DNA of 42,077 bases from positions 25,290 through 67,366 of the forward strand of contig NZ_QEAS01000015.1 in NCBI RefSeq assembly GCF_003130405.1, written 5' to 3'. The notes below the pieces were generated by a model that saw only the letters and a list, made by a program, of their open reading frames with translations, was not told where the DNA came from and ran no database searches. Shown here piece by piece: positions 110 to 32,108 of the stretch. The translations under genes and the position numbers were made by a program. The stretch is from Pararcticibacter amylolyticus. Lineage in GTDB: Bacteria > Bacteroidota > Bacteroidia > Sphingobacteriales > Sphingobacteriaceae. How positions within the stretch are numbered: position 1 is the first letter of the stretch; the number at the start of each line of letters is the position of its first letter.

Positions 110-1801
110 TCAATGCCAGATACTCTTCAACGCGTAGACTTTTATATCGGAAATGGCAGCGGTGCCGCCACTGGCAGAAAGCGAAAGAGTCCTGTTTTCG
201 GGTTTTATGTTAATATTTACAGGCATGAACAGCAGGCCGTCTCCGGCGAAAACTTCAAGTCCGGTTCTGTCAGCATAAATTATCCACCTTTGCTTTCCTT
301 TTATTAAGGGTGCGGGGGCTGTAACTCCATCAATGGTCAGCTGCTGCTTTTCGGCGTTATAAACCACCGGCACTCCCCGGACATTTAGAGCAACGTCTTT
401 TGCGGTGCCGGGTGCAAACTCAAGTCTTATTTCGGCCAGCTCAATATCAACGGAAGCCAATGGGTTAGCTGAGCCTTTGCCAAGCTTCATTTTACCAAAG
501 GAATAAGTCTTGTCGCGAAGACCTTCAAGCTCCTTAACGGGCATTCTGGTTAGCCTGAGGCCCTGCGCCCTGCTTTCAAGTTTCAACTCGAGGGGAATAC
601 TCATCGACTGATTAAAGTTCATTCCTTCGCGGTCGGTGTTGGTACGCCACCAGCCAATCTCTATCCGCCTGCCTTTTGGTTCATTGCTAAACGTCTGAGC
701 GGCATAGAAGTCGCGCCCCTGCTGCCCCTTAAGCTTTTCAATCTCAGGTTTGAATACTTTTCCATCGAAGGTCCCGATGGCGTACTCGCTGTTCGCTCCG
801 GTTAGGATCCACTTCTTCTCGTTGCTTCCTTCGATTTTCAGTTCAAAGAACTCGGGGCATTCAAAAAGATAGCCGTCTCCCCCAATTCCTCCGTTTACAC
901 TGCTGACTTTAGTCCAGTTCTTCAGGTTGGGAGAGGTGAGGAACTGAATGCTGTGCTGCCCTTTATCACGTTCAACATAAAGCACCATTACCCATTGTTT
1001 TGAGGGTTCGTGCCATATTACCTTGGGGTCGCGGTTGTCCTTGTTAATCCGGGGCAGAACCGGCTTGTCGAGTTTTTGAAACGTACGGCCGTCTGTGCTC
1101 CAGGCCAGGCACTGCGCCCAGGATCTGGCTCCGGTATAAAATGCTACCATCGCAGGTTTTCCGGGACTTCCTAATCCACTGGTGTTCTTTTCATCGATCA
1201 CCGCACCTCCGCTGAACATGGGCCCGGACTGATCAGGATGCAATGCGTCTCCTACTTCTTCCCAATGAAGGAGGTCTTTACTGACAGCATGCCCCCAGGT
1301 CATATTCCCCCATCCGCGGCCATACGGGTTATGCTGAAAGAAGAGATGGTATTCGCCATTGTAATAGACCATTCCATTAGGGTCGTTTGTCCAGCCTCTT
1401 TTAGGTGAAAAATGAAACTGGCCCCTGAACTTCTCCTTATACAGGTTGCTGTCGTCGCCATCGGTATCACTTTGAGCAACCGCATTGAATACGCGTGATC
1501 CCTGCTTAATCTTGTCCACTCTTAATTCAACCTGCTTACCCTTCCATTGCGAGATATCCAGATAAGCCAGCCAGTCCGGCGTATCCTCCGCGAGTTCTAT
1601 ATCAAAAAAACGGGTATTAACCCCATCTACCCAAAGCTCTATGTTCCGTTTGGGTGCCCCATTTTTTACAGGCAGAACAAGGAAGTTCTTTTCGGCTGTA
1701 AAATAATTACTGTAGTTTACCTCGGCCGGCGCGTTACTTTGCTGTCCCCATGCGGTGATGGATAATAAAGTGAGAAAGAAAATGCCTGATACTATCTTCA
1801 T
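110..1801 (-). CDS. GH32 beta-fructosidase (exo-levanase/inulinase/invertase type), canonical
   Basis: A secreted glycoside hydrolase family 32 enzyme that releases fructose from fructans or sucrose. The start at 1801 gives 563 residues with a clean signal peptide ending near AWG-QQ; an upstream ATG at 1840 would add 13 residues. Residues ~30-110 form an extra N-terminal beta-rich region like the one found in Bacteroidota GH32 proteins (DUF4980-like, from memory). The five-blade propeller begins with WTNDPNG (nucleophile D140). It carries QHNP, the RDP motif (D258, transition-state stabiliser) and FECP (E314, acid/base), so the catalytic triad is complete. A C-terminal beta-sandwich follows. 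It is the last gene of the operon. Chain-end versus internal attack and levan versus inulin preference cannot be read from the sequence. Confidence 0.93.
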   Translation of the reverse strand: MKIVSGIFFLTLLSITAWGQQSNAPAEVNYSNYFTAEKNFLVLPVKNGAPKRNIELWVDGVNTRFFDIELAEDTPDWLAYLDISQWKGKQVELRVDKIKQGSRVFNAVAQSDTDGDDSNLYKEKFRGQFHFSPKRGWTNDPNGMVYYNGEYHLFFQHNPYGRGWGNMTWGHAVSKDLLHWEEVGDALHPDQSGPMFSGGAVIDEKNTSGLGSPGKPAMVAFYTGARSWAQCLAWSTDGRTFQKLDKPVLPRINKDNRDPKVIWHEPSKQWVMVLYVERDKGQHSIQFLTSPNLKNWTKVSSVNGGIGGDGYLFECPEFFELKIEGSNEKKWILTGANSEYAIGTFDGKVFKPEIEKLKGQQGRDFYAAQTFSNEPKGRRIEIGWWRTNTDREGMNFNQSMSIPLELKLESRAQGLRLTRMPVKELEGLRDKTYSFGKMKLGKGSANPLASVDIELAEIRLEFAPGTAKDVALNVRGVPVVYNAEKQQLTIDGVTAPAPLIKGKQRWIIYADRTGLEVFAGDGLLFMPVNINIKPENRTLSLSASGGTAAISDIKVYALKSIWH

Positions 1802-1876
1802 GAAGTTTGATTTAAAAAAATGCAATAATCTGTTTACCATCCCTTATTCTGCTGATACAACTTGTTTCTGAAGGTT

Positions 1877-3400
1877 TTACCAAATCGATTTCATAGGGGC
1901 AAGGACCAGTCGTTTTACCACTGTTTCTTTGTTTACTTTAATGATCAGTTGCTGATAGGGTTTCGCCGGAAAAAATAAACTTGTCATTACAGTCAGTCCC
2001 TGATCGGCAAACAGCTCAACGGAAGAAGCGTCGACAACTAACTTCAGGTCACCTGAAGAGGCTGCGGTAAGCCGCGGCGCATAGGCGATGCCCGCGAAGC
2101 CCGGGTTAAAGCCGGATAAGCCTGCGTGGGTGCGGTCAATGAAATACCTGTCTTCGGCTTTATTGTATCCCAAAATCAGCTTTTCGCCCTGGTCATTAAA
2201 CATCTCTATGGAATAGGAATCGATCTTATCCAGCTTGAATTCCAAAGTATACTGACCGGGTAACTTTATATGGTTGGTAACCTTGAGGCTCCCTGTCTTC
2301 GCGATTTCTGAACTGGCGATTGCAACAGGTTTTCCGGCAAGTTTATTCAGCTCGGGTGAAGGATGTGACGTAAGAAGTATCTGCCCCTTTATATTTACGA
2401 GGCCGAGGTCCCTGGGTACGGTCGCCGAATTACGCCAGGTATCGGTAGGAACCTCGTTGGCGTAGTTCCAGTTGCTCATCCATCCAAGAAAAATCTTTCT
2501 TGAACCGGTATTCGACCAGGTAATTCCTGCATAGTTGTCCGGACCGTAATCTATCCAGCGGGTCTGCTGCTGATCCGACTTAAATGTGTGCCCGTCGAAC
2601 TGCCCTATGAAATACTGGGTTGCAGAGCCCCCATTCGGGCCTCCGGGATTAATGCTGACGAGCAGTACCCAATATGTTTTACCATTTAACGCCAAAGGGA
2701 ACAGATCGGGGCATTCCCATACTCCTCCGTGTGCTCCGCGCTGTTCGCCAAATTCGCTTTCTTTTTTCCAGTTCTTCAGGTCAGGAGAGGAATAAAATGT
2801 GATCCTGTCTTTGGTGGCCAGAGTCATGATCCACTTTTTACCTGCTGCAAACCACATCACCTTAGGGTCCCTGAAATCGCGGATACCCGGGTTTTTCACG
2901 ACAGGGTTACCGGCGTATTTCGTCCAGGTGTTGCCATTGTCCACACTGTAGGCAATGCTTTGGTTCTGGAAGTTTTCTTTCCCTTCTTTCTCTCCTTTAG
3001 GGTCGTGATGGGTGAAGATGGCCACCAGGGGAACCTGTCCTTTTTTTCCGAAGCCGGAGGTGTTGTTGACATCGGCAACGGCGCTTCCCGAAAAAATATA
3101 ACCTAAACTGTCGGGATACAAGGCTATGGGCTTTTGCTGCCAGTGGACGAGATCTTTACTGGTGGCATGTCCCCAGTGCATCGGCCCCCAGGTAGTCCCG
3201 CCGGGAAAATGCTGATAAAACAAGTGATAGGTGCCCTGAAAATATACCATCCCGTTGGGGTCATTCATCCATTTAGCGGCTGGTGAAAAATGGAGCTGGG
3301 GACGGTGGTGTTCGTTATACTTCAGATTTGTCTGCTGTGCTCTTGAGCTTATAATACAGAGCAAGCAGCATAAGCATGAAAGGACTTTTTTTAAATTCAT
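1877..3400 (-). CDS. GH32 beta-fructosidase, canonical
   Basis: A 507-residue secreted GH32 enzyme. The Cys-rich signal peptide ends near SRA-QQ. The catalytic set is complete: WMNDPNG (D47), QHFP with WGPMHWGHA, FRDP (D178) and WECP (E229), followed by a C-terminal beta-sandwich. Length and motif order match typical bacterial levanases/invertases with no extra domain. It lies 25 bp after the 666-residue GH32 variant and 75 bp before the last GH32 gene, all leftward, so it is probably co-transcribed. This and the last gene are the two proteins in the locus for which standard fructosidase activity is confidently expected. The predicted location is the periplasm. Confidence 0.95.
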   Translation of the reverse strand: MNLKKVLSCLCCLLCIISSRAQQTNLKYNEHHRPQLHFSPAAKWMNDPNGMVYFQGTYHLFYQHFPGGTTWGPMHWGHATSKDLVHWQQKPIALYPDSLGYIFSGSAVADVNNTSGFGKKGQVPLVAIFTHHDPKGEKEGKENFQNQSIAYSVDNGNTWTKYAGNPVVKNPGIRDFRDPKVMWFAAGKKWIMTLATKDRITFYSSPDLKNWKKESEFGEQRGAHGGVWECPDLFPLALNGKTYWVLLVSINPGGPNGGSATQYFIGQFDGHTFKSDQQQTRWIDYGPDNYAGITWSNTGSRKIFLGWMSNWNYANEVPTDTWRNSATVPRDLGLVNIKGQILLTSHPSPELNKLAGKPVAIASSEIAKTGSLKVTNHIKLPGQYTLEFKLDKIDSYSIEMFNDQGEKLILGYNKAEDRYFIDRTHAGLSGFNPGFAGIAYAPRLTAASSGDLKLVVDASSVELFADQGLTVMTSLFFPAKPYQQLIIKVNKETVVKRLVLAPMKSIW

Positions 3401-3425: not shown

Positions 3426-5426
3426 TTATTCCTCATTCTGCCATATTCCATTAAGTGGCCAGATAGTTAATTTCTGTATTTTTACCTTTCCTGTTGGGGC
3501 CCTCCAACTTATCTCTGTAGCGTCGGACCCGGGAAATAACTGACAGGTTAGGTTCGCCTCACCGTCATTTGCAAAAACTTCGATGGAAGACTGATCAATC
3601 AGAATATGTAATTTTAAAAGACCTGATTTCAACTTAACAGGGGCGGAATAAAATCCGGGAAATGAAGGACTAAAACTTACGTCTCCTGACTTACTGCGAT
3701 CGACACTTAATATCCCTTCGTCGGCATTATAACTGACGATCGTTTTATTTTCTTTCTTCCCGCATAGTCCTAATTCAAATTTACCATTTTCCGGCAGTTC
3801 TATTTCCGCGACCATTTCGTACACATTCGCCGGAATACGCTGATCCAGCATGGTACTTCTATTACTGACCTGCAGATTTTCCCGATGTATTGCATCGCGA
3901 CGTAATATCTCTATTTCCCTGACAAGGTTTTGTCTTATCCTGAACCCTTCAGATGTATTTACTAACTTTAACTCACGCGGGAAAGTGTGTCCCCCTTTCC
4001 ATGGCATAGAGGGCACTTTTGTGGCATACAGCCAACTGCCCAACCACGCAACGGAAATCCTGCGGTTGTCCTGGGCTGGTCCGTTAACCCACGATCTTAC
4101 TGCATAAAAATCGGGGCCGTAGTCAAGCCAGAATGCATTCTCCCGGCTTTTCCGTGCAAGTTTATCAGCCAGCATAACGTGGTCGATCATGATATGACCA
4201 AACGGGCCTGTTTCGTTATCGACTATTTCAAGTCTTGCTTTCCGCCCTTTCCATGATGACACGTCCCATCCGGTCCAATAGAGCGCTTCTGTCTCCGTTC
4301 CGGTTTGTGTCCTTACAACTTTATTGTCTATTATAAGATTGACACATGCTGTCGAGGGGTGCAAACCTCCTCCAATCAGAAAATTCAGAAAGGGACGGTC
4401 AATCAGGAATTCCGGCGAAGTCAATTTACCAGTCCCCTTATCTCCCGGATAAAAGCTGTTGATCAGGTGTCTTCCCGCATATCCCAGGACTGCATTCTGA
4501 TAGGGAAGCGGTCCGCTGGCCGGTGATGCGGAAAAAGCTCCACCTTCTTTTTTCCAATCTGCTAATCCTTCTTCAAAATCAAAGATCACCTTGCCTTCAG
4601 GTAATTCAATACCTGATGTTTTCATGAACTCAGCATCAGCAGTAAACGCCCTGCCATCAAAATCTCCTATGAAATACTGGCCTCCGATTGGTTGAACACT
4701 TACTTCGAGTACCCACTTAGATACTCCGGTGGAATCCCTGACCTGAAGGGGAAAGAAATCGGGACATTCCCAAACACCGTTAACCGCACCAAACGGTCCA
4801 AAGTCGCTTAAGAATTGCCATTCTTTAAGATTGGCGGAGGAGTAAAACCGTATTTTCCTTTCGGCTGCCAGTGCGACAACCATCACCCATTTCTTTTCGG
4901 GTGCAAACCAGAACACCTGCGGATCCCGGAATTCTGTTGAGTTTATATCTATCACTGGGTTGCCTTTATAATTGGTCCATGTTTTGCCACTATCCGTGGA
5001 GTAGGCTATATTTTGAAACTGACGCCCGTCTTTCCGCCGCAAGCCCGAGTAGATGGCAACCATGGGAGGTTCTCCATTTACTCCAAAACCGCTGGTGTTA
5101 AAGCTGTCAATTAGTGCAGAACCGGACATTTCGGCAACCGAATCTGTGCTCAAGCTCTGTGCCCTCCCTAATTTCCAATGCACCAGATCTTTGCTCAGAG
5201 CGATTCCTTTGTTGACCTGATATTCGCCATCTACGTAAACAAGCGCAGTAGGATCAAATAACGGACCACGCGGCGGGGTCAGATGGTATTGCGGCCTATA
5301 TTTTTCGTGGTAAGTGACTTCCGCTGACGGATATTTGGGTGTGGTTTGCTGTGAATATCCACAGGACACAGCAAGCATGACTGTCGCACTCGTTAGTTCT
5401 GCAAGAATTATGTTGAATCGTTTCAT
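3426..5426 (-). CDS. Divergent GH32 protein with inserted CBM-like domain and a shortened first blade
   Basis: A 666-residue secreted protein, possibly a lipoprotein (AVSC, C22). The GH32 fold is clear from EFRDP (D168) and WECP (E220), but the start of the propeller is unusual. WMNDPNG is replaced by LFDPTAL, which keeps an Asp (D58). About 15 residues that normally hold the QHNP and WGxMHWGHA motifs are absent: the chain goes from DGEYQ almost directly to ALSKDLVHW. Residues ~277-425 are an inserted beta-sandwich (FDFEEG, IGGGLHPST, FGHIMID) like that in some Bacteroidota and planctomycete GH32 proteins; the propeller then resumes at WLDYGPD. It may have altered specificity or be a fructan-binding protein. 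It sits 18 bp after the LamG-GH32 gene. A fructan locus context is certain; activity is not. Confidence 0.85.
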   Translation of the reverse strand: MKRFNIILAELTSATVMLAVSCGYSQQTTPKYPSAEVTYHEKYRPQYHLTPPRGPLFDPTALVYVDGEYQVNKGIALSKDLVHWKLGRAQSLSTDSVAEMSGSALIDSFNTSGFGVNGEPPMVAIYSGLRRKDGRQFQNIAYSTDSGKTWTNYKGNPVIDINSTEFRDPQVFWFAPEKKWVMVVALAAERKIRFYSSANLKEWQFLSDFGPFGAVNGVWECPDFFPLQVRDSTGVSKWVLEVSVQPIGGQYFIGDFDGRAFTADAEFMKTSGIELPEGKVIFDFEEGLADWKKEGGAFSASPASGPLPYQNAVLGYAGRHLINSFYPGDKGTGKLTSPEFLIDRPFLNFLIGGGLHPSTACVNLIIDNKVVRTQTGTETEALYWTGWDVSSWKGRKARLEIVDNETGPFGHIMIDHVMLADKLARKSRENAFWLDYGPDFYAVRSWVNGPAQDNRRISVAWLGSWLYATKVPSMPWKGGHTFPRELKLVNTSEGFRIRQNLVREIEILRRDAIHRENLQVSNRSTMLDQRIPANVYEMVAEIELPENGKFELGLCGKKENKTIVSYNADEGILSVDRSKSGDVSFSPSFPGFYSAPVKLKSGLLKLHILIDQSSIEVFANDGEANLTCQLFPGSDATEISWRAPTGKVKIQKLTIWPLNGIWQNEE

Positions 5427-5444
5427 CGTCGTTATTTTAACTGA

Positions 5445-7616
5445 CTAGAATGCCGTTTGGTTATTGCTGCTTTTTAGCATCCATACTTTGGCCTCCGATA
5501 ACTGAATGCTCCCACCTCTGGAAAACAGCTCTACGCGGTTGCTTTCAGCCTTTGAAGGAAATATCCTGGTTGTAAAAGCATCCTGATTGTTGATGAATCC
5601 TTCTATAACAGACCCGTCTATAAACAGGTGCAGATTTATTTTCTGGCCGGGTGTAACAGTAAAGCCTCCTGTACGAACCTGGAGCGGAACATATTTCCGA
5701 AGGCTCGAATGCGTTTGATCAACCACTAAAAGACGCTTGTCGACATCGAAATATATCTTGCTGACCTCGTTCCCTTCTGCATCTTTTCCGAGGAGTAGGC
5801 CAAATTGCTTTGCATCTGCCGGTGTAATATCTACACTGATCTCAACCTGGTGGTTATCCCTGGTCAGCAATAAAGTTGATGTCGTGTCAATGGTTGTTTG
5901 AGGGAATTCTGTTACCGATGATCTTAACCCGGATAATGCCGGATGTGGCGATTGCTTGATTCTGCCGTTATCAAGAGTCCAAACTCTCGGAATACTGTAT
6001 AAGTGAGTCCATCCTCTGCTGAAGGTTTCTTGTGCACTGGTTTCATCGGGAATAATGGCAATGGCGGTGGTATTGCCCATAGCGTCTATAGCAACTGAAG
6101 GCGACAACAGCCGGTTGATGACTTCCAGTCGCTTTGGCGCCGGATCGTCAGGGACGAACTTTTCGCGGGTGAAGTCGCCTGTCCAGTACATGGCAACCGC
6201 AGGCTTTCGCCTTTCGGGTACCTTATTCACGAGCAGGACGTATTTATTTCCCATTTTCCAGAACAGGGGCATTTCCCAGAACACGCCCGAATCATCACAC
6301 TCCGGATCACCGGTAAACAGCGGATGGAGGTACGTCCAATTTTTTAAATCGGTTGATTTATAAAGTAAGATGGTTCCTTTCTGAATACCATTTTCCTCAA
6401 GGCCGAAACCAACGCCCATATACCAGGTTTCTTCATGTTTCCATACGATCGGGTCGTGAAAATCCGTTCGGCTGAATTGTCCCGGATTGCCTTTTATTAC
6501 CGGGTTGCCGGAGTATTTATGCCAGCCATTGAGGCTGTCATCATCAGGGTATGCAGCACTGATATTCATACCCTTATCGCCGCCTGCTGAATAAAATATT
6601 ACGGGATGACCGGTGTCGTCAGTAATAACACAGCCTGACCATATACCGTTTTGATCATAGCCTGGCTGAGGTGTAAGAACAGGCTTATGTTCGGTCCACT
6701 GAATGAGATCGGGGCTGCTGAAATGTCCCCAGTTTATTTGTCCCAGAAATAAGTTTGCTCCATTTTTCTGATTGAATACATGATATTTCCCTTTGTAGAA
6801 AATCAGCGCATGAGTTTCATTCGTCCAGTTCGCGGCAGGCAAAAGGTGATAGCGCGGCCGGGTAAAATCATTTTTAAATCGTTCCTGAGGAATTGCAAGT
6901 ATGGCTTTTTGATGCTTACGGCGATCGTTAAGCCTGGTAATTTCTGTCTTATTCAGCTCGTCAGGAGAGGCAACAAGTTCATCAATGATGCCGTTGATTG
7001 CTGTCACCGGAAAAACTCCGACACTTTTTTCCCTCCAGTCACGGCCAATTAAGACAGTATCGGCACCTGCATAAACCGGATTTGTGGTAATGTCAATTGC
7101 AACTACAGATTTGCCATTGAGAAGTAATTCCACTTCCCTGCTGGTGAGATTGAGCGCGACATTGATCCATTTAAATTTTTCAATAGTCACATTCGAACCA
7201 TAATAGTTTACCCTATCATTCTTACTGACTCCCAGTATGGGTTGCCCGAAACGGTCAACACATGCCGAAATCCAGAACTGTCCGTTCCCCAACGCAAAAA
7301 AGCCGGCAGTGTCTGTTGGATAGGTTTCGAGGGCGAATTCTGCCTGCAGGCTGCGCAGATGCGAATCCCCAACCTTACCGGAAAGCCAGGTGGAGTATCC
7401 ATCTGTCCTCAGGCCTTTACCCTTAAAACCATTCACTAACTCTGGTCTACTCCGGTTACTGGTAATATGCAGCTCTATGGAGCCTGGCCTCCTTGTTTCA
7501 GCCTGTAAAGACTCATCTTCAAAATGCCAGGTACTCTGACCATTTGCAGCTCTTGTCTGGCTAAAAAGAAATACAAGTGAAATAATGGTTGTGAGAAGGT
7601 ATCTATAACGGATCAT
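5445..7616 (-). CDS. LamG-like domain plus GH32 with nonstandard nucleophile motif
   Basis: 723 residues from the start at 7616; an ATG at 7634 would add six. The signal peptide ends near TRA-ANG. Residues ~30-220 look like a concanavalin/LamG-type beta-sandwich (FFALGNGQF, FKWINVALN, NGIIDELVAS). The C-terminal two thirds are GH32-like: NWGHFSSPDL, FHDPIVW (D388) and FWEMPLF (E448). Where family members have N-D-P-N-G this protein has N-E-T-H-A, so the nucleophile Asp is replaced by Glu (E267), and the usual Cys after the acid/base Glu is Met. It is the first GH32 gene after susD, separated by a hairpin. It could be an enzyme with altered chemistry or substrate, or a binding protein. Family assignment is firm and function is open. 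Confidence 0.85.
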   Translation of the reverse strand: MIRYRYLLTTIISLVFLFSQTRAANGQSTWHFEDESLQAETRRPGSIELHITSNRSRPELVNGFKGKGLRTDGYSTWLSGKVGDSHLRSLQAEFALETYPTDTAGFFALGNGQFWISACVDRFGQPILGVSKNDRVNYYGSNVTIEKFKWINVALNLTSREVELLLNGKSVVAIDITTNPVYAGADTVLIGRDWREKSVGVFPVTAINGIIDELVASPDELNKTEITRLNDRRKHQKAILAIPQERFKNDFTRPRYHLLPAANWTNETHALIFYKGKYHVFNQKNGANLFLGQINWGHFSSPDLIQWTEHKPVLTPQPGYDQNGIWSGCVITDDTGHPVIFYSAGGDKGMNISAAYPDDDSLNGWHKYSGNPVIKGNPGQFSRTDFHDPIVWKHEETWYMGVGFGLEENGIQKGTILLYKSTDLKNWTYLHPLFTGDPECDDSGVFWEMPLFWKMGNKYVLLVNKVPERRKPAVAMYWTGDFTREKFVPDDPAPKRLEVINRLLSPSVAIDAMGNTTAIAIIPDETSAQETFSRGWTHLYSIPRVWTLDNGRIKQSPHPALSGLRSSVTEFPQTTIDTTSTLLLTRDNHQVEISVDITPADAKQFGLLLGKDAEGNEVSKIYFDVDKRLLVVDQTHSSLRKYVPLQVRTGGFTVTPGQKINLHLFIDGSVIEGFINNQDAFTTRIFPSKAESNRVELFSRGGSIQLSEAKVWMLKSSNNQTAF

Positions 7617-7657
7617 ATCAGAATTTTTAATCATGTCAACAATTCCTTTAAAAGAGG

Positions 7658-7699: not shown

Positions 7700-9445
7700 T
7701 TATAGATACCCAGGATTTTGTTTATACAGACCTCCCGAAAAATTTATCTGAGCTTGAGGTATTGGAAAATACTCGTCACGCCCTTTTATAAATTTTGCAT
7801 TTTGCAGGTAGGTTCTCAGGTTCTTTTCCTTTGCAAAGTACTCCTCGTTTAGCACCCGTTCTGCAATTCCCCATCTGATAAGATCAAAAAAGCGTTCCCC
7901 CTCCATTGCAAACTCGAGCTTTCTTTCAAACCGCAAAGCTTTTCGTGCATAATCCTGGGTCCAGTTACAATTTACTCCCGGCTGATAGGTCGCAATTGTA
8001 TATCTCGCAGCATAGTCAGTAGAGCTGGTATTGTTCCATGCCAGAACATACTTACTGTTCCCGGCACGGGTCCTGGTCTCATTTATCAGCGAAACGGCTT
8101 CCACCTGACGACCTAACTCTATCAATGCTTCTGCTTTCCATAATAAAAGGTCAGGATAGCGGATGATGCAAAAGTTGAGTGCTGAACCGCCCCAGGGAAA
8201 ACCTTTTACCATGGAAGGAGATTCTGGAGATACTAATGCTTTTTTATTGGCGTAATACCCGTAAGTTGCCGGTTCACGGGCCCAGTCCGCACCATACGGC
8301 GCCGCTGCATAGTTTTTCCAGCGTATTCCGATCCGGCCAACGGTAAAGTCGAGTCGGGGATCTACATTGTTATTAAGACCGTCCCCGACAGTCATGATAT
8401 TACTGTTATTATAGCTGTCAAATAACGGCAATCCATTTGCGTCAGTTTTATAAGAGTTGACCAGATTCTGGCTGGGTTGAAAAAAGCCATCACCGCTATA
8501 AGCCGGGCCACGCGGCGCATTCAATAAATTGCTCCAGTTAATCCTGCCTTGGGCAGTGCCATCATTTATGGAATACTGAACGGCGAATACCGATTCTCTG
8601 CTGTTGTCATATTCGGCCTGCGAAAGTTGCTGGAAGTCGGATAACAAATGGTAACCTCCGTTGGCGATAACATCATCACAAAGGCTGATTACCTTGTTCA
8701 GCAATGTTTGGTCAACGCCAGCAAGCGTATTATCTGCATTTTGCTTATAGGCACGATACAAGGTCACCTTTGCCTCGTAGGCTTTAGCTGCATACTTGGT
8801 CGCGCGACCGGGTTCGGGCTGAGTGGCCGGTAATAATTCTGCGGCAGCAGCAAATTCTGCGGCAATTTTTTCCAGGATCTGATCCCTGGTAAACTCAATA
8901 TTTGAAATTTTAATATAATCCTTCGTAGCAACATTTTCATCGAAATATGGGATTTTGTTAAACAGCCTGCTTAGTTCGAAGAAAAAATGCGCGCGCAAGA
9001 ATCTCATTTCTCCCAGTCGGATGTTTTTCAGAGGCACTTGTTGTTCGGTCACCGCATTCAGCCTCCTTATAGCATTATTAGCACGCTGAACACTGATGTA
9101 GAGATTGAACCATTTACGATCCAGCAATCCGTTTGTTGCATACACCCCGTTAAAGGTTTCAAAAGCATTAAATTCGCCTATGTCTCCAATGCCGCCACCC
9201 CCTTTATAAGCAGTTTCTGCACGTACGTCCCCGTAAACCCAGTTAGTTGTCGGGGATAGAAAAGTTCCGTCATTCCCTTCCGGACCTGCCAGTGCCGCAT
9301 AAGCAGAAACACATAGCGATTCGATGCCGTCGGGCGTATTGAGCAGTTCGTCGCTCAGTTTTCCTTTAGGCTTAGTATCTAAAAAATCGTTTTTACAAGC
9401 GGTGCCAAACAGCAGCAACCCCAGTAATACACAGATATATTTCAT
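7700..9445 (-). CDS. SusD/RagB-family outer-membrane fructan-binding lipoprotein
   Basis: A 581-residue lipoprotein (GTAC, C17 acylated) of the SusD family. It is the surface lid that captures glycans for the partner SusC channel. The N-terminal half carries the helical TPR-like repeats (RANNAIRRLN, GEMRFLRAHFFFELSRLFNKIPY). The C-terminal part has the usual RYPDLLLWKAEALIELG and a late RFFDLIRWG segment before the closing FPIPQ-type motif (YFPIPQAQINF). It lies 28 bp after susC and before four GH32-related genes, so a fructan ligand is inferred from context. No separate SusE/F-like surface glycan-binding protein is present in this locus. Confidence 0.95.
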   Translation of the reverse strand: MKYICVLLGLLLFGTACKNDFLDTKPKGKLSDELLNTPDGIESLCVSAYAALAGPEGNDGTFLSPTTNWVYGDVRAETAYKGGGGIGDIGEFNAFETFNGVYATNGLLDRKWFNLYISVQRANNAIRRLNAVTEQQVPLKNIRLGEMRFLRAHFFFELSRLFNKIPYFDENVATKDYIKISNIEFTRDQILEKIAAEFAAAAELLPATQPEPGRATKYAAKAYEAKVTLYRAYKQNADNTLAGVDQTLLNKVISLCDDVIANGGYHLLSDFQQLSQAEYDNSRESVFAVQYSINDGTAQGRINWSNLLNAPRGPAYSGDGFFQPSQNLVNSYKTDANGLPLFDSYNNSNIMTVGDGLNNNVDPRLDFTVGRIGIRWKNYAAAPYGADWAREPATYGYYANKKALVSPESPSMVKGFPWGGSALNFCIIRYPDLLLWKAEALIELGRQVEAVSLINETRTRAGNSKYVLAWNNTSSTDYAARYTIATYQPGVNCNWTQDYARKALRFERKLEFAMEGERFFDLIRWGIAERVLNEEYFAKEKNLRTYLQNAKFIKGRDEYFPIPQAQINFSGGLYKQNPGYL

Positions 9446-9473: not shown

Positions 9474-12400
9474 TTAAAATCCAACGTTCAGACCAACAGT
9501 ATAAATTCTTGGCAGGGGATATGGATAACCCAGGCCTTCAGGATCTGCACCCTTATACTTAGTAATAGTTAATAAGTCCTGTCCCTGTAAATAAATGCGC
9601 AGATTTTTTATATTTAACCTGCCTGCCACTGACGAGGGCAACGTATAGCCCAACTGGATGTTCTTTAGTTTGAGGTAGGATCCGTTCTCAATGAAATAAT
9701 CAGATAGCCTGCCTTCGTCGTTCAGATTAACTGCAGTCAATGCAGGAATCGAAGAATCGTAATTCGTTGTTGGATTCCAGGCGCCGAGCAGCCGGGTTCC
9801 GTGATTACCTGTCCATAGTTGAAAAAAGTCGGTGTAGAACTTGGCATTATTATATGCGTCTCTGATCATGCCATTTACGAAAAACGCGAAATCAAAAGCT
9901 TTATAGCTGAGGGCCACGTTTAACCCTCCTGTGAATTTTGGCTGATCAGAACCCAGCCACACACGGTCTTTATCGTCAATTATTTTATCATCATTGACAT
10001 CAACATAACGGATCCTTCCCAATCCCTTGCCCGGCTGATTAATACCGTCATTCAGTTCTTCGGTGGTGCGATATAAACCGTTGGTTTTATAACCGAGCCA
10101 GGACCCTGCGGGCTGACCAACAATACTTAAGTTTATTCCGTTTCCGCCGCCATAGGTATAATAAATGTCTTCAGGGACCTCAGTTACCCTGTTTTTGTAG
10201 CCCGAACCAGTAAGGGTAAGGCTATAGCTAAAATCCCTTCCGATTTTATCCTGCCAGTTTACTGTCCCTTCGACACCTTTATTACTCAAAGAGACACCAT
10301 TGTAAGCCATATATCCGCCTTCCCCGATTATCCCGATATAAGGGCGGTCAAAGAGCAGGTTACTTGTGTTCTTTATGAAATAATCAAATGTGAAATTCAA
10401 CCTGTTCTTTAAGGCAGAAAGATCAAATCCGAAATCGGTCTGAGCTGTAGATTCCCATTTTATATTTGGATTACCTGTTCGCTCTTTGATAATACCATTG
10501 GGAATTGTCCCCTGATTGATACCTCCCAAATCATATCCGGCACGTATGAGGTCTGTACGGTATTTCGTATAGGTAGCCTCGTTATCAATCTGATCATTTC
10601 CGTTTTTCCCCCAGCTCGCCCTGAGTTTCAAGTCAGAGATGAAACTCACATTTTTCAGGAAGCTTTCCTCACTGATTCTCCACCCGGCTGAAACAGAGGG
10701 AAAGAATGCTTCGTTATTATTGGCCCCGAACCGGGAGGAGGCGTCTCGTCTTAATGTCCCCTGTAGCAGATATTTGCCACTGTAGGCATAATTTAACCTG
10801 CCAAAATAAGAGGAAATAGCGTAACGGGAGGCTCCGTTTCCATTAGTTTGTTTACCATCTCCGGCATTCAGGTAACGGTAATCCAGGGCTTCGATCAAAA
10901 AGTTTTCCCGGTAACCGGTGAGGTTTTCATTAAGCTGTTCTTTTGATTCTGTACCTGCAAATAAATTAACCGAATGCTTTTGCATGATATATTGATAAGA
11001 CACTGAGTTTGTCCATATCCACTGGCGGTCATAATCAGAGTTAACAGTCAGCATATTTTTATCCACGGTCCTGTCGCCCTCCTTCCATTTAGGCTCGAAA
11101 TTGGATGAGAAGCCATTACGGTAATTAATGCTGAAATTGGAACGGAAAACGAGGTTTTTTAAAGGCTCGATTTCTAAATACGCATTGCCAAAAATACGCC
11201 ATTGCTCAGACCTGTTCTGGCGCTGCTGATCAAGCAGCCGGATAGGATTAGGTTTGTCGCCAATACCCTGTGTCGGGCCGGCATATCCTCCGTATATATC
11301 ATAGACAGGGATAATCGGATGCTGGGCAATAGTTAATTCCTCTATTCCACCTGGCTTAAACTTCTCGTTCCATTTACTGACATTTAAGTTCTCACCAATC
11401 CGGATCCTGTTTTTTAAAAAGCTATAATCGGAATTCGACCGCCCGTTAAAGCGGGTAAAATTCGTATGTTTAATCAAACCATCCTGATCAAAATAGTTGA
11501 AAGAGAAGGTCGAACTCCCGTTGTCTGAGCCTTTTGATACGGACAAGTTGTAGTTCTGCAGTAAGGCGTTATGATACACCTCTTTAGCCCAATTGGTGTT
11601 TCCGGCACGAATTGTTTTCTTTGCATCTATAAACTCAGGAATTACCGGAGCATCCCCGCTGCCGTACAGGTCGTGATGGGGCTTTACGCCGTCATTCTGG
11701 TAGGCAGTCCAGTACGCCTCCCCCCATTGCTGAGTATTCTGCATATCAATTCCGGTGTGAAACTGCTGCAAGGAATGATTAGAGTCAAAGTTTATCCTGA
11801 CTTCGTTCTTTTTAGCCTTCTTAGTCGTAATTATAATTACTCCGTTTGCTGCCTGTACACCATAAATAGAGGCTGAAGCGGCGTCTTTTAACACCTGGAT
11901 GGATTCGACATCATTTGAATTTAAAAGGGTGGCAATATTGTCGCGTGTTTGCACTCCGTCCACCACATAAAGAGGGGTGTTGTTGCCCAGGCTGGTTAGC
12001 CCTCTTATAGCGGTTGAAGTGCCAACACCGCCGGGAGTACCATCATTAAAGACAGTTAAACCCGGGACTCTTCCCTGCAGGGAAGAAGTTACATTACCGG
12101 TGGGTATGCTGGCAATGTCTTTTGTATTTACAACCGCCACCGCTCCGGTAATATCGGCCTTGCGTTGTGCCTGATAGCCGGTTACGACTACATCGTTGAG
12201 GGCAGTGGACCCTATTTCAAGTTTAATATTTACATTAGCGGTTGCAGCATCGACCTTCCAGGTAAAAGGCTTCGACCCTATGTAGCTTATACGTAATGTT
12301 TGTCCGACAGAGGCACGGATCTGGAATTTCCCCCTGTTGTCTGTTAGTGTTCCTTTCTGTGTTTCTGCAACAGCGACATTAGCTGCCTCCAGGGGTTCTC

Positions 12401-12500
12401 CGGAACTACTGGTGACTGTTCCTGATACCATCCTGGATTGCCCGAAAGATGTACCTGCACAGGCACATATCAGGCTTAAGAGAAGTATTAATTTTCTCAT
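9474..12500 (-). CDS. SusC-family TonB-dependent outer-membrane transporter
   Basis: A 1008-residue importer that works with SusD to bring fructan fragments across the outer membrane using TonB energy. It has a signal peptide (ending near SFG-QS), then a carboxypeptidase-D regulatory-like domain at ~22-100 (SGTVTSSSGEPLEAANV), a TonB-box-like DVVVTGY near 105-112, a plug domain (LQGRVPGLTV, STAIRGLTSLG, PLYVVDGV) and a beta-barrel ending in a terminal aromatic strand (IYTVGLNVGF). There is no N-terminal STN signalling domain, so it is not expected to signal to an anti-sigma factor; the locus has a hybrid two-component regulator instead. It lies 28 bp after the fructokinase gene. Confidence 0.96.
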   Translation of the reverse strand: MRKLILLLSLICACAGTSFGQSRMVSGTVTSSSGEPLEAANVAVAETQKGTLTDNRGKFQIRASVGQTLRISYIGSKPFTWKVDAATANVNIKLEIGSTALNDVVVTGYQAQRKADITGAVAVVNTKDIASIPTGNVTSSLQGRVPGLTVFNDGTPGGVGTSTAIRGLTSLGNNTPLYVVDGVQTRDNIATLLNSNDVESIQVLKDAASASIYGVQAANGVIIITTKKAKKNEVRINFDSNHSLQQFHTGIDMQNTQQWGEAYWTAYQNDGVKPHHDLYGSGDAPVIPEFIDAKKTIRAGNTNWAKEVYHNALLQNYNLSVSKGSDNGSSTFSFNYFDQDGLIKHTNFTRFNGRSNSDYSFLKNRIRIGENLNVSKWNEKFKPGGIEELTIAQHPIIPVYDIYGGYAGPTQGIGDKPNPIRLLDQQRQNRSEQWRIFGNAYLEIEPLKNLVFRSNFSINYRNGFSSNFEPKWKEGDRTVDKNMLTVNSDYDRQWIWTNSVSYQYIMQKHSVNLFAGTESKEQLNENLTGYRENFLIEALDYRYLNAGDGKQTNGNGASRYAISSYFGRLNYAYSGKYLLQGTLRRDASSRFGANNNEAFFPSVSAGWRISEESFLKNVSFISDLKLRASWGKNGNDQIDNEATYTKYRTDLIRAGYDLGGINQGTIPNGIIKERTGNPNIKWESTAQTDFGFDLSALKNRLNFTFDYFIKNTSNLLFDRPYIGIIGEGGYMAYNGVSLSNKGVEGTVNWQDKIGRDFSYSLTLTGSGYKNRVTEVPEDIYYTYGGGNGINLSIVGQPAGSWLGYKTNGLYRTTEELNDGINQPGKGLGRIRYVDVNDDKIIDDKDRVWLGSDQPKFTGGLNVALSYKAFDFAFFVNGMIRDAYNNAKFYTDFFQLWTGNHGTRLLGAWNPTTNYDSSIPALTAVNLNDEGRLSDYFIENGSYLKLKNIQLGYTLPSSVAGRLNIKNLRIYLQGQDLLTITKYKGADPEGLGYPYPLPRIYTVGLNVGF

Positions 12501-12528: not shown

Positions 12529-13434
12529 TTATAAAAAAATTTCTCTTCGGAAGGTAAGATATTCTTCTGCGTCGTATTCCGGGCAGCCACCTTTACGGGT
12601 TGCTACAAAACCGCCCATAGCAATAGCGTTTCGAAGCATAATCCTTGGCTCTTCGCCTATATAATGATTGGATAAAAAAGCTGCCAGAAACGCATCGCCA
12701 CTGCCGATGGTATCCGCTACCTTTACTTCACGCCCTGCACAATGATACGCTTTGTCTCCTTTATAATACGAAGCTCCAAATTCCCCTTTCGTTACAATTA
12801 TTTCTTGTATGCTGAATTTGTCCTGGATAAATTTGATTTGATCTGCCTCCTTCTCATATGATCCATGAAAAATGGACTGTACCATTTCCAGCTCGGCTTC
12901 GTTAAGCTTTGCCAAATCACACTTTTCAAGTAATTTCATCAAGAGCGTCCTGTTGACAAATGGTGGTCGAAGGTTAATATCGAATACCTTAAATGAGTCT
13001 TTTTCAAGTAGCTTGAAAAGTGTATTCCGTGTGATGTCATTGCGGGAGGCAAGGCTTCCAAATACAAAGTACGTCTGCGGCTTAATATAGCTACTGATTT
13101 CTGTTGCGTCATTGATATAATCCCAGGCTACTGGAAATACAATTTCATAAGACACTTCATTCCTATTGTTCATTTTAGCGATTACTTCGCTGGTAGGATG
13201 GTCTCCATCTTCCTGTAGTAACTGGCGGTTGATACCCCATTTATCCATAAGGTTCTCTAGTTTCCGGCCGTTGTCGTCTTTTCCCACTCTACTGATCAGG
13301 CTGGCAGGCAGTCCAAGTTTATTGAGATGATAAGCTACATTAAGTGGAGCACCTCCAGGCTGAGGTCCGTCCGGTAATACATCCCATAAGATTTCACCGT
13401 AACAAATTACCGGTATAATTTCACTATTATTCAT
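12529..13434 (-). CDS. PfkB-family fructokinase
   Basis: A cytoplasmic 301-residue ribokinase-family sugar kinase, most likely phosphorylating fructose released by the GH32 enzymes. It has the N-terminal PfkB signature region (PGGAPLNVAYHL) and the C-terminal active-site signature DTIGSGDAF, with catalytic base D247. GSGD replaces the commoner GAGD. The start at 13434 was chosen because the family core (IPVICYGEILWDVLP) begins right after it and it leaves an 11-bp gap to the symporter gene. The longer open frame would overlap that gene by 70 bp and add a Lys/Arg-rich unconserved stretch. Fructokinase rather than another PfkB kinase is inferred from the locus and from the fructokinase-like GEILWDVLPDG. 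Confidence 0.92.
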   Translation of the reverse strand: MNNSEIIPVICYGEILWDVLPDGPQPGGAPLNVAYHLNKLGLPASLISRVGKDDNGRKLENLMDKWGINRQLLQEDGDHPTSEVIAKMNNRNEVSYEIVFPVAWDYINDATEISSYIKPQTYFVFGSLASRNDITRNTLFKLLEKDSFKVFDINLRPPFVNRTLLMKLLEKCDLAKLNEAELEMVQSIFHGSYEKEADQIKFIQDKFSIQEIIVTKGEFGASYYKGDKAYHCAGREVKVADTIGSGDAFLAAFLSNHYIGEEPRIMLRNAIAMGGFVATRKGGCPEYDAEEYLTFRREIFL

Positions 13435-13445
13435 AAAAATATCAG

Positions 13446-14774
13446 TTAATGGAGTATAACGTTTGTTCCTATCTGTTCCAGTGATTTTCCTTTTGTTTCG
13501 GGCATGAAACGCCATACAAAAATGAGCTGCAGTATCATCATGGAGCCGAAAAAGTAAAAGGTGACGGCGCCGCCTAGCTTCTCGGCCAGGTAGGGGAAGC
13601 TGAAGGCGATTAATGCAGCCATTATCCAGTGGGTAGAGCTGCCCAAAGTCTGGCCTTTGGCCCTTACCTGGTTGGGGAAGATCTCGGAAATGAATACCCA
13701 GATAACGGCACCTTGCGAAAAAGCAAAGAACGCGATGAACACCATCACGTAAATGGGGATTGCAAAGCCGCTGAACTGCCCTGAATTGAATGTGACCGCC
13801 ACCAGGAAGAGGGAGCCGATTAAGCCGACGGACCCGATTAGCATCAGTACACGCCTTCCTACTTTATCAATGAAGTTGATGGCCATGAGCGTGAATGCAA
13901 AGTTAATGGCTCCGATGCCTACTGTTGACAGGAGCGAGGAATGGGCGCCTAGTCCCGCCATTTCGAAGATCCGGGGAGCGTAATAGATGATGGCGTTTAT
14001 GCCGGAAACCTGGTTGAAGAATGCGAACAATACCGCCAGGATGACCGGTGCTTTATATTGCCTGGAGAAAAGCCGTGTCTCAGGGGCACTTGTCTGGCTT
14101 AACTTAGAATTTTCGATCGATCTTAGCTCCTGTTCGCAGTTAAGCGGATTGATAATCCGCAAGATCTCAAGAGCCTGAGCACTTGCTCCTTTTTTGAGGA
14201 TGAGCCACCGCGGACTTTCGGGGATAAAACGGATTAATATAAGAAACAGCAAGGAAGGGGCTGCCTGAACTCCCAGCATCCAGCGCCATGAACTTTCGCC
14301 GCCCTGGCTGATCAGGTAATTGGAGAGATAGGAGATCAGGATGCCTAACACCACGTTAAACTGGAACAGACCAACCAGCCTGCCGCGCCTGTCGGCAGGT
14401 GATACTTCTGAAATATAGATAGGAGCGGTAACGGATGAAGTGCCGACACCTAAGCCTCCGAGAAATCTGAAAAATAAAAAGATATGCCAGTTGTCGGCTA
14501 GTGCGGTGCCTAAAGAGGATATTAAATAAGCAAAAGCGACCATGTATAAGGTGTTCTTACGTCCGAAGTGGTCGGACGGACGGGACCCGAGCATCGAGCC
14601 TATAACTGTTCCGATGAGTGCAATCGAAATGGTCAGGCCATGCTCAAAAACCGACAGGTTCCAGTATTGCTGGATAGATTTTTCAGCACCTGAAATCACC
14701 GCCGTATCGAAGCCAAACAGAAATCCGCCGAGAGCCACGACCATGGACCAGGCCAAAACAGAATTTTTTTTCAT
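13446..14774 (-). CDS. MFS sugar porter (probable fructose/H+ symporter)
   Basis: A 442-residue inner-membrane transporter of the sugar-porter branch of the major facilitator superfamily, with about 12 hydrophobic segments. Diagnostic motifs are FGFDTAVISG in TM1, SDHFGRKN after TM2, RFLGGLGVG, PESPRWL at the end of TM6, QVSGINAIIYYAP in TM7, DKVGRR between TM8 and TM9, and PETKGKSLEQI at the C-terminus. Fructose is the likely substrate given the fructokinase immediately downstream. It is the first gene of the leftward operon, and its promoter must lie in the 335-bp region shared with the regulator. Having the symporter and kinase ahead of susCD, not behind the hydrolases, puts monosaccharide use first in the transcript. 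Confidence 0.93.
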   Translation of the reverse strand: MKKNSVLAWSMVVALGGFLFGFDTAVISGAEKSIQQYWNLSVFEHGLTISIALIGTVIGSMLGSRPSDHFGRKNTLYMVAFAYLISSLGTALADNWHIFLFFRFLGGLGVGTSSVTAPIYISEVSPADRRGRLVGLFQFNVVLGILISYLSNYLISQGGESSWRWMLGVQAAPSLLFLILIRFIPESPRWLILKKGASAQALEILRIINPLNCEQELRSIENSKLSQTSAPETRLFSRQYKAPVILAVLFAFFNQVSGINAIIYYAPRIFEMAGLGAHSSLLSTVGIGAINFAFTLMAINFIDKVGRRVLMLIGSVGLIGSLFLVAVTFNSGQFSGFAIPIYVMVFIAFFAFSQGAVIWVFISEIFPNQVRAKGQTLGSSTHWIMAALIAFSFPYLAEKLGGAVTFYFFGSMMILQLIFVWRFMPETKGKSLEQIGTNVILH

Positions 14775-28693: not shown

Positions 28694-28698
28694 GGTGT

Positions 28699-29856
28699 TT
28701 ACAGGTTGATATTCATTGTTGACGCCAGAGAAATGGCCTGTTCGCCAAACCGGGACCGGATCTTGTCCATCGCCTGGTACAGGCTGTATTGTTCACGCGA
28801 GTCGCTGTAAAGGTCGATCTGCTCGAAGCCGCTGACGAGGTTGGACAGCCGTACGCCGACAAGGCGGATGAGCATACGCTTTTGGTATACCTGGTTGAAC
28901 AGCTCTTTTGCTTTATGAATGAGGACGCTGTCGAGGGATGTATAGGGAATGACGGCCTGTTTGGTGACGTCTTCAAAATTGGAATACCTGACGGTGACGG
29001 TTATGCAGGCGGCGAGCTTCCGTTTTTGCCTTAGCTCGTAGGCAATCCCGGTGACCATAGCCGTCAGCAGGGTATGGATAGAGGCTACATCAATGGTGTC
29101 GGTCTTGAACGTACTTTGGGTCCCGATGCTTTTTTGTTCATGATAGGGGATAACGGGTGATATATCTATTCCTTTTGCTTTCTGAAGGAGGACGAGTCCG
29201 TTTTTACCTAATACGGTATTCATCTGATCCGGGTGCATTTGGGAGAGGGTGCGAATCTTCCGCACCCCCATGTCACTGAGCTTCATAAAGGTTTTTTCTC
29301 CGAGGCCGGGAATCTTTTTTATGGAAAGCGGATCCAGGAAGTTGCGGACTTCCGGCTGCCGCACGTTGAGCTCGCCATTGGGCTTGCACTCATTGGTGCA
29401 CATTTTGGATACGGTCTTGTTGACCGACAGCCCGAAGGAGATGGGAAGGCCGGTTTCTTTTATGACCTTTTTACGTAATTCGTGTGCGTAGAGCTGTGTG
29501 TGATGGAACCGGTCCATGCCGGTCATGTCAATATAGTGTTCGTCGATAGAGGCCTTTTCAATGAGCGGGACATGCTGACGGAGAATGTCGGTAATTTCGT
29601 GCGATGCTTTGGAATACTCGTCCATATTTCCGCGGATAAACATGGCGTGAGGGCACAGCATCCTGGCCATCCGGGATGACATGGCTGAATGGATCCCATA
29701 TTTCCGGGCTTCGTAACTACAGGAGGCTACCACTCCGCGGTCTGAGGTGCCGCCAATGATAACCGGCTTTCCAGCCAGTGAGGGATCTTTCCGTGTTTCT
29801 ACCGATACGAAAAAAGCATCCTGGTCCATGTGAATGATCTGCCGCTCTGTCTGCAT
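28699..29856 (-). CDS. dinB: Y-family DNA polymerase (DinB/ImuB-like)
   Basis: A 385-residue translesion polymerase. The catalytic carboxylates are present in HMDQDAFF (N-terminal Asp) and KASIDEHYID (Asp-Glu pair), so it should be an active polymerase, unlike many ImuB proteins that have lost these residues. FF after the first motif includes the steric gate. The thumb helix-hairpin-helix (KIPGLGEKTFMKL) and the little finger (STFKTDTID...ITVTVRYSNFEDV) follow. It is the first gene of a two-gene operon with dnaE2, 5 bp apart. Its start codon is 10 bp from a 45-bp palindrome that contains the promoter, implying tight repression. DinB and ImuB cannot be separated with certainty. Confidence 0.93.
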   Translation of the reverse strand: MQTERQIIHMDQDAFFVSVETRKDPSLAGKPVIIGGTSDRGVVASCSYEARKYGIHSAMSSRMARMLCPHAMFIRGNMDEYSKASHEITDILRQHVPLIEKASIDEHYIDMTGMDRFHHTQLYAHELRKKVIKETGLPISFGLSVNKTVSKMCTNECKPNGELNVRQPEVRNFLDPLSIKKIPGLGEKTFMKLSDMGVRKIRTLSQMHPDQMNTVLGKNGLVLLQKAKGIDISPVIPYHEQKSIGTQSTFKTDTIDVASIHTLLTAMVTGIAYELRQKRKLAACITVTVRYSNFEDVTKQAVIPYTSLDSVLIHKAKELFNQVYQKRMLIRLVGVRLSNLVSGFEQIDLYSDSREQYSLYQAMDKIRSRFGEQAISLASTMNINL

Positions 29857-31107: not shown

Positions 31108-31145
31108 AATTATATAGCAACGTTTCAGGGTAATTGAGATGTTCT

Positions 31146-32081: not shown

Positions 32082-32108
32082 TGGTTACTTATTCATTTCT
32101 CTTTATTC

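Follow-up and report, generated by a model that had tools for sequence, protein, structure and literature searches.

Can a GH32 protein whose active-site motifs have been rewritten still be a working enzyme and, if so, for which fructans? The question is raised by a 42,077-nucleotide stretch of the 6.3-Mb genome of Pararcticibacter amylolyticus (contig NZ_QEAS01000015.1, positions 25,290 to 67,366; hereafter the window), in which one operon encodes four GH32 proteins. Two of these are canonical, as an earlier note on this DNA had stated. The other two are a 729-residue protein with Glu in place of the nucleophile Asp and a 666-residue protein that has lost part of active-site loop 1. The earlier note left it between binding proteins and enzymes for an unusual linkage. 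The enzyme half of that proposal is favored by the locus, the catalytic triads, the lost tryptophans and purifying selection, and the binding half is disfavored by an invariant acid/base Glu and stabilizer Asp. The explanation that we prefer, with slightly more conviction than doubt, is that each altered protein would be a functional representative of its own ancient GH32 branch in the fructan loci of Bacteroidota, the 729-residue protein being a Glu-nucleophile fructanase with an opened pocket. A Glu nucleophile is already known in GH32 from the fungal endo-inulinase INU2; what appears to be new is a Bacteroidota Glu lineage with a co-occurring short-loop lineage.

Active-site anatomy of the altered proteins

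The four GH32 open reading frames (ORFs) are all open and lie on the minus strand, with GH32N expect values, in ascending order of coordinates, of 5e-74, 7e-98, 2e-55 and 4e-53. The genes and the positions discussed below are as follows.

110–1840, minus strand: canonical GH32, 576 residues, WTNDPNG and FECPE (ORF and Pfam; in the 50-row tree)
1877–3400, minus strand: canonical GH32, 507 residues, WMNDPNG and WECPD (ORF and Pfam; in the 50-row tree)
3426–5426, minus strand: 666-residue short-loop (SH) GH32 with an inserted domain (ORF and Pfam; AlphaFold2 model; exo- and endo-inulinase structures at Z 48–50)
4143–4613, minus strand: the inserted domain, about residues 272–428, splitting the GH32N match (alignment and AlphaFold2)
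5211–5213, minus strand: codon of N72, adjoining the 14-residue loop-1 deletion (alignment)
5253–5255, minus strand: codon of D58, the retained nucleophile Asp (alignment)
5445–7634, minus strand: 729-residue (723-residue) Glu-clade (NE) GH32 with signal peptide, LamG domain, GH32 propeller and GH32C sandwich (ORF and Pfam; AlphaFold2 model; Z about 43)
6270–6275, minus strand: codons of the acid/base E454 and of M455, Met instead of the Cys of ECP (alignment)
6453–6455, minus strand: codon of the stabilizer Asp D394, in FHDP (alignment)
6744–6746, minus strand: codon of L297, at the place of the loop-1 Trp, W65 of exo-inulinase and W47 of AtcwINV1 (offset and alignment)
6816–6818, minus strand: codon of E273 (E267 in 723-residue numbering), aligned with the GH32 nucleophile Asp (alignment)
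6939–7349, minus strand: LamG (Laminin_G_3) match, residues 96–232 (Pfam)

Both altered proteins score above the Pfam cut-offs for the GH32N propeller and the GH32C sandwich. The 723-residue form named in the earlier note is the 729-residue ORF read from its second Met. Its motif W270-T-N-E273-T-H-A aligns with WMNDPNG of the 507-residue neighbor, in agreement with the earlier claim that NETHA exchanges the nucleophile Asp for Glu; the protein is thus without the classical Asp of WMNDPNG and is nonetheless GH32 by fold. The Arg of its RDP motif is His (HDP), and the Asp of that motif, D394, and the acid/base E454 are kept. Likewise, the 666-residue protein keeps its stabilizer Asp D168 and acid/base E220, and D58 of its motif PLFDPTAL falls in the nucleophile column, all as the earlier note had it. 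It does not have the classical loop 1 with the −1 subsite Gln and Trp: the alignment leaves a 14-column gap where the canonical protein reads YQHFPGGTTWGPMH. The earlier description of about 15 missing residues is therefore right for loop 1, with its Gln and Trp, and wrong for the WGHA motif, which is degenerate (KGIA) and still present.

The claim that each protein carries an extra β-sandwich fared unevenly. The LamG domain of the 729-residue protein barely passes its Pfam cut-off (28.5 vs 27.6 bits). The insert of the 666-residue protein is beta-rich by prediction, with no match to a Pfam family and no PDB sequence match better than E 0.14, which leaves the description as similar to a carbohydrate-binding module unproven. 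What by eye is the same β-sandwich insert is also found in a 710-residue GH32 protein with a fully canonical site (L173:14301-16430, genome G707). The insert was consequently rejected as a mark of the altered site, and the G707 protein is likely a picture of the state before loop 1 was lost.

Distribution and conservation of the Glu clade

Glu occupies the nucleophile position in all 66 NE-clade sequences with a readable motif, among 72 distinct sequences that score best with the NE profile; the six without the motif are one partial protein (L115) and five Asp-type relatives outside the branch (L012, L017, L029, L031 and L033). Contigs were scanned with the patterns NWTNETH and QINWGHF, so the 52 sequences that carry a scan pattern are biased to Glu, and the fairer count is the 14 of 14 among sequences with neither pattern. 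Profile searches supplied five of these 14 (two each from G274 and G632, one from G707), and the other nine are additional genes next to one that bears a pattern; two of the 14 (L082 and L083) look like close copies. The scan gave 53 loci, and those with an organism in their titles include Sphingobacteriaceae, Chitinophagaceae, Flavobacteriaceae, Bacteroidaceae, Prevotellaceae, Tannerellaceae, Saprospiraceae and Muribaculaceae. Beyond the window, the clade is rare: NE proteins were found in 2 of 250 family genomes, 2 of 394 genomes of a phylum sample and 2 of 394 of a class sample (G274 being in both of the latter), where the top first-look candidates were scored (four per genome in the family sample, two in the others). 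The NE profile separates its members clearly, at 608–853 bits for G274 and G707 against at most 215 for the next matches, and at 470–477 bits for G632 against at most 170.

In an alignment of 33 NE rows, hand-chosen and mostly from the pattern scan, N272, E273, Q289, W302-G303-H304, D394 and E454 are invariant at a mean column identity of 34%. Next to the acid/base, 60 of 66 NE sequences have Met (one Leu, two Thr, three not read), compared with Cys in 94 of 98 canonical ones. Nei-Gojobori ω (the nonsynonymous to synonymous rate ratio) is 0.08–0.26 for the eight NE pairs, out of 11, whose synonymous distance (dS) is finite, two of them with dS > 1.4; the other three pairs are saturated. The NE proteins, and the SH proteins described below, are under purifying selection. 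Since Asp and Glu codons are one base apart, a Glu kept over such depth points to selection.

The short-loop clade

A search of 251 genomes of the family (250 besides that of the window) found orthologs of the 666-residue protein in 10 others at 36–42% identity, nine near full length and the tenth (L049) split. All nine readable orthologs have WIGDPDG or WMGDPDG and a 13-column loop-1 gap, as does the other L049 fragment. Wider sampling added versions of about 500 residues without the insertion, of the GDPCG/GDPSG type. The short loop was readable by pattern in 22 of the 27 sequences scoring as short-loop; the other five are the window protein (read by alignment), three fragments and the G707 protein with its canonical loop. 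All 25 aligned rows, four of them canonical, retain D58, D168 and E220. In the eight SH rows, the loop-1 Gln and Trp columns are empty throughout, and the Asn preceding the nucleophile is Gly in six and Phe in two. Two of three SH pairs gave ω of 0.13 and 0.07 (the second with dS 3.1), the third being saturated.

In one draft genome, that of Bacteroides rodentium (L087), SusC and the short-loop GH32 gene are each split into several ORFs, possibly by assembly error or by real decay.

Phylogeny

The phylogeny that the earlier note had called for resolves both variants as separate, supported clades. Of 207 sequences, 122 were kept after removal of partial and similar rows, 118 of them used in a tree that excluded the nucleophile and loop-1 columns; a more careful tree used 50 rows and omitted just five columns per motif. 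In both trees a single branch separates all NE sequences from the rest (51 of 51 rows with support 94 in the 118-row tree; 18 of 18 rows, 100/100, in the 50-row tree). The SH sequences likewise form one branch (20 rows, support 98; 8 of 8 rows, 100/98). Two proteins that the motif rule labels short, L012 and L017, fall outside the SH branch in the 118-row tree.

Two errors that could mimic such variants were rejected. Sequencing or frame error does not fit open reading frames and the recurrence of both variants in independent genomes, and local pseudogene decay does not fit the clades and values of ω well below 1.

Proteins of about 740 residues in two further loci (L012:676-2895 and L017:1489-3726) are GH32-like, have ILDPAG, with Asp, at the nucleophile region and form a long branch beside the Glu branch; they are possible Asp-type relatives of the Glu clade.

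Comparison with INU2 and BT1760

The notion that a Glu nucleophile would be unheard-of in GH32 was rejected on the precedent of INU2 of Aspergillus ficuum (PDB 3RWK/3SC7), for which Glu43 is reported at the nucleophile position (PMC5245892, PMC6042768, PMC13416181). An in-silico study, citing the crystal paper, gives this Glu and V234, beside the acid/base, as critical for activity (PMC6042768). The 3RWK sequence reads WMNEPNG, and EVPDM at the acid/base. INU2 therefore resembles the 729-residue protein in its natural Glu nucleophile (by alignment) and GH32 fold, and the NE clade in the replacement of the Cys beside the acid/base by a hydrophobic residue (Val in INU2, mostly Met in Bacteroidota, so that WECP has become WEVP or WEMP). 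In contrast to the NE clade, it retains P-N-G after the Glu and is not a sister in the tree: in the 50-row tree INU2 branches among Asp-type GH32s, and the Bacteroidota Glu clade holds at 100/100 without it. To our knowledge, INU2 also has no LamG domain, unlike the 729-residue protein. A shared origin with INU2 is thus unsupported (50-row tree, no approximately unbiased test), and because INU2 sits among Asp-type enzymes, the Glu and the Cys replacement most likely arose twice, the Bacteroidota clade most likely being a second, independent Glu-nucleophile GH32 lineage. No description of a Glu clade in Bacteroidota was found among the literature matches listed.

The endo-levanase BT1760 of Bacteroides thetaiotaomicron shares with the 729-residue protein a Bacteroidota fructan locus, a loop 1 without Trp and the GH32 fold, but differs from it in its Asp nucleophile (in GDPMP), its retained Cys and its reported status as a surface lipoprotein. 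Nucleophile and acid/base of BT1760 are reported to stand 5.2 Å apart.

Pocket residues and structure models

In exo-inulinase, Trp38, Trp65 and Trp335 are reported to narrow the pocket, and loop 1 of BT1760 is without the Trp (PMC6560043). At the Trp65-equivalent position, Trp is present in 96 of 98 canonical sequences vs 1 of 66 NE sequences, a count made at a fixed +24 offset and blurred by indels. In the Trp335 column, Trp is found in 17 of 20 Asp-type rows (two gaps, one Phe; L013, L029 and L031 excluded), in 0 of 18 NE rows and in 8 of 8 SH rows; both columns were assigned by hand. In the invertase AtcwINV1, W47, the equivalent of Trp65, is described as holding O6 of the fructose (PMC3360783), and D23 holds O1. 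From these two roles we infer that NE proteins may accept fructosyl units that carry a substituent on O6 or O1, as internal and branch residues do. The mutants W79L and C239A (C239 lying beside the acid/base) of the exo-inulinase KcINU1 are reported as inactive, which means that the loop-1 Trp and the acid/base-adjacent Cys sites matter in Asp-type enzymes; R181L and R181K are inactive as well (PMC7545266).

The AlphaFold2 model of the 729-residue protein has a mean predicted local distance difference test (pLDDT) score of 90.7 and a predicted template modeling (pTM) score of 0.88, and that of the 666-residue protein a pLDDT of 84.5 and a pTM of 0.80. Models were compared with VIA-align, rows within 1 Z being counted as tied. 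The 729-residue model matched plant fructan 1-exohydrolase (Z 43.0, 1.8–1.9 Å over 459 residues; 1.8 Å for 2AEZ), the Frischella β-fructofuranosidase 7VCO (Z 43.0, 2.4 Å, 463 residues), INU2 (Z 40.4, 2.6 Å, 454 residues) and BT1760 (Z 33.8). By profile 7VCO is the closest to it, and by fold 7VCO is tied with the plant fructan 1-exohydrolase 1ST8; unlike the 729-residue protein, 7VCO has an Asp nucleophile and an ECP motif, and the LamG part lies outside the aligned sequence. The 666-residue model matched 8I12 (Z 49.7, 1.9 Å, 462 residues), INU2 (Z 48.3, 1.9 Å, 458 residues) and 1Y4W (Z 48.2, 1.8 Å, 464 residues). The exo-inulinases 1Y4W and 8I12, with 3SC7, are thus its closest solved structures; in contrast to it, 1Y4W and 8I12 have a full loop 1 with Gln and Trp and read WMNDPNG or WLNDPNG, and their aligned sequence lacks the insert.

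Locus context

The operon and the adjoining regulator contain the following further genes.

7700–9445, minus strand: SusD (profile match)
9474–12500, minus strand: SusC (profile match)
12529–13515, minus strand: PfkB sugar kinase, fructokinase-like; best NCBIfam match PRK09434, under its cut-off (profile match)
13446–14774, minus strand: sugar porter family transporter of the major facilitator superfamily (profile match)
15110–17890, plus strand, opposite to the operon: hybrid two-component regulator with a periplasmic sugar-binding-protein-type sensor domain (profile match)

Read along the minus strand, the order is sugar porter, PfkB, SusC, SusD and the four GH32 genes. The features of a Bacteroidota fructan utilization locus are therefore present: a SusC/SusD pair, GH32s, a fructokinase-like kinase, a sugar transporter and a sensor-regulator. 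In the whole genome there are 11 GH32N-profile matches at E ≤ 0.001, of which five lie within these four GH32 genes and the other six are weak (E 7e-9 or worse); for a BT1760-type GH32, the genome gave a weak short match only.

We compared this arrangement with 36 relatives (L069–L104, 44–56% identity to the query; 37 loci with the window). In 29 of the 36, a same-strand SusD gene precedes the NE gene, separated from it by no more than three genes. The next same-strand gene after the NE gene is an SH gene in 14 of 37 loci (the window, L078, L084, L086, L087, where it is split, L089, L092, L093, L094, L095, L096, L099, L103 and L104, where it is a fragment); in a fifteenth (L070), a single gene intervenes. 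Several of the 37 loci end or change strand after the NE gene, and L092 and L104 belong to one assembly, so that the 14 are not all independent. In the 17 distant NE loci L105–L121, no SH gene was seen. Conversely, in 9 of 10 family loci with SH but no NE gene, the SH gene stands beside a BT1760-like GH32. The BT1760-like profile was built from eight of these neighbors, and for the one in L041 the best PDB matches are the BT1760 structures (196 bits, against 40 for the best other structure). In both settings, the partner of SH is thus a GH32 of endo type or putative endo type.

The DUF4960 domain was identified by Pfam in 6 of 10 proteins scanned from NE loci. In the three loci where upstream proteins were scanned for it (L072, L074 and L106), it occurs before the NE gene, and in two loci (L111:6298-9858 and L117:9188-13504) an NE GH32 is fused to LamG and a C-terminal DUF4960 in one polypeptide. 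DUF4960 is reported to bind levan, and inulin about 10-fold more weakly, and 5 of 103 DUF4960 sequences are joined to GH32 domains (PMC10076258).

The possibility that the NE gene is an exclusive substitute for a BT1760-like endo-levanase was unsupported: 6 of 22 NE genomes have a BT1760-like match, strong in five. In Prevotella denticola (L112, 8981 to the end), a second SusCD locus, containing a BT1760-like GH32, comes directly after the Glu-type fructan locus; this suggests two fructan types in one organism.

Proposed function and alternatives

The 729-residue protein would be a retaining β-fructanase with Glu273 as the nucleophile, Asp394 as the transition-state stabilizer and Glu454 as the acid/base, and we regard catalysis with a Glu nucleophile as probable. 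Its pocket would be opened by two lost tryptophans (the loop-1 Trp replaced by L297 and the blade-5 Trp by E531) and reshaped by the Thr and His of NETH and by Met455 beside the acid/base. Its most likely task would be cleavage within fructan chains or at their branched residues, where the two canonical enzymes of this operon would be inefficient; we put this endo or branch mode forward tentatively, at or a little short of an even chance. The 666-residue protein, with Asp58, Asp168 and Glu220 kept and loop 1 lost, would have an open −1 side and most likely process the same or related oligosaccharides. The substrates and cellular locations given here for both proteins are predictions.

Several observations weigh against this reading. 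The position of Glu273 as nucleophile comes from alignment. The HDP His and the lost Cys stand at sites essential in KcINU1 and could mean inactivity. Beside the Glu clade branch two GH32s with NDPNG but Ala in the acid/base column (L029:1102-2829, YACP, and L031:1270-2946, GACP), which may be inactive or reprogrammed, so that inactive relatives may exist nearby. Within its clade, the 666-residue protein belongs to the most eroded members (W38 to Pro, the Asn before the nucleophile to Phe, WGHA to KGIA). INU2 retains the loop-1 Trp, so the pocket of the 729-residue protein is not simply INU2-like, and the nearest folds of this protein are exo-acting plant enzymes and invertases. In addition, a crude pattern detects no lipobox in it, in contrast to the surface endo-levanase BT1760, so that surface endo-cleavage of that kind is doubtful; the protein is probably periplasmic, where the need for endo cleavage is smaller. 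The same pattern flags six NE proteins elsewhere and the window 666-residue protein as possible lipoproteins.

The last of these points are what one would expect if the 729-residue protein were an ordinary exo β-fructosidase for one linkage or end group (sucrose or kestose ends, for example), with a Glu that is neutral or tunes the site: the lipobox is missing and the best fold matches are plant fructan 1-exohydrolases and invertases. We consider this unlikely, since the equivalents of W65 and W335, which narrow an exo pocket, are both lost, and a Glu kept in every readable NE sequence, although one base from Asp, is hardly neutral. Somewhat less likely still is that both proteins are non-catalytic fructan-binding proteins derived from GH32 enzymes. 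The changes do fall at normally essential sites (the nucleophile, the Cys beside the acid/base and the loop-1 Trp, the last two being where mutation kills KcINU1; PMC7545266), both proteins have extra LamG or inserted domains, and the neighboring Asp-type L029 and L031 proteins carry Ala in the acid/base column. However, the acid/base Glu and the stabilizer Asp, needless for binding alone, are invariant in all 33 NE rows and all 25 rows of the SH alignment, a Glu nucleophile is reported to work in INU2 (PMC5245892, PMC6042768), and glycan binding is already served by SusD in the locus and by DUF4960 proteins in related loci. A pure binding role is unlikely because the other catalytic carboxylates are kept and both proteins are under purifying selection. 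Finally, a non-fructan or α-fructosyl substrate for both, such as a modified or arabinofuranosyl glycan, is very improbable: a DUF2961 (GH172) gene beside both variants in L086, the reported action of the GH172 founder on α-fructofuranosyl bonds (PMC8605356) and a GH36 gene (Pfam) in L075 speak for it, against the fructokinase-like PfkB and canonical GH32s of the same operon and the reported binding of levan and inulin by DUF4960 (PMC10076258).

The DUF2961 gene of L086 (13581-15662; GH172, the α-fructofuranosidase family) lies between the short-loop GH32 and the canonical GH32.

A Glu-nucleophile fructanase and its short-loop partner as active enzymes also allow a more speculative proposal, which as a whole we rate as rather unlikely: the NE and SH proteins may be a co-evolved pair for branched mixed-linkage fructans of the graminan or agavin type. 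The loss of the loop-1 Trp would admit O6-substituted and the Asp exchange O1-substituted fructosyl units, and evolution would have arrived two or more times, in fungi and in Bacteroidota, at the same switch from chain-end to internal cutting, made up of the Asp to Glu and Cys to hydrophobic changes.

Glycosidases are generally expected to be severely impaired when the nucleophile Asp is changed to Glu. A clade with Glu fixed across many Bacteroidota families, in parallel to fungi, would offer a natural test case for how active sites accommodate a longer nucleophile, residues 273, 455, 297 and 531 being the coupled positions to vary. Such a clade would also mark fructan loci, some of them from Bacteroides and Prevotella, for which plain GH32 annotation may give the wrong substrate, and it provides candidate enzymes for making or opening branched fructo-oligosaccharides.

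Other features of the window

Three tandem genes at 30133–33029, of about 310 residues each, encode collagen triple-helix repeats. At 25745–29856, a DNA polymerase III alpha-type gene adjoins a Y-family (ImuB-like) polymerase gene, a pair that we take to resemble an inducible mutagenesis cassette.

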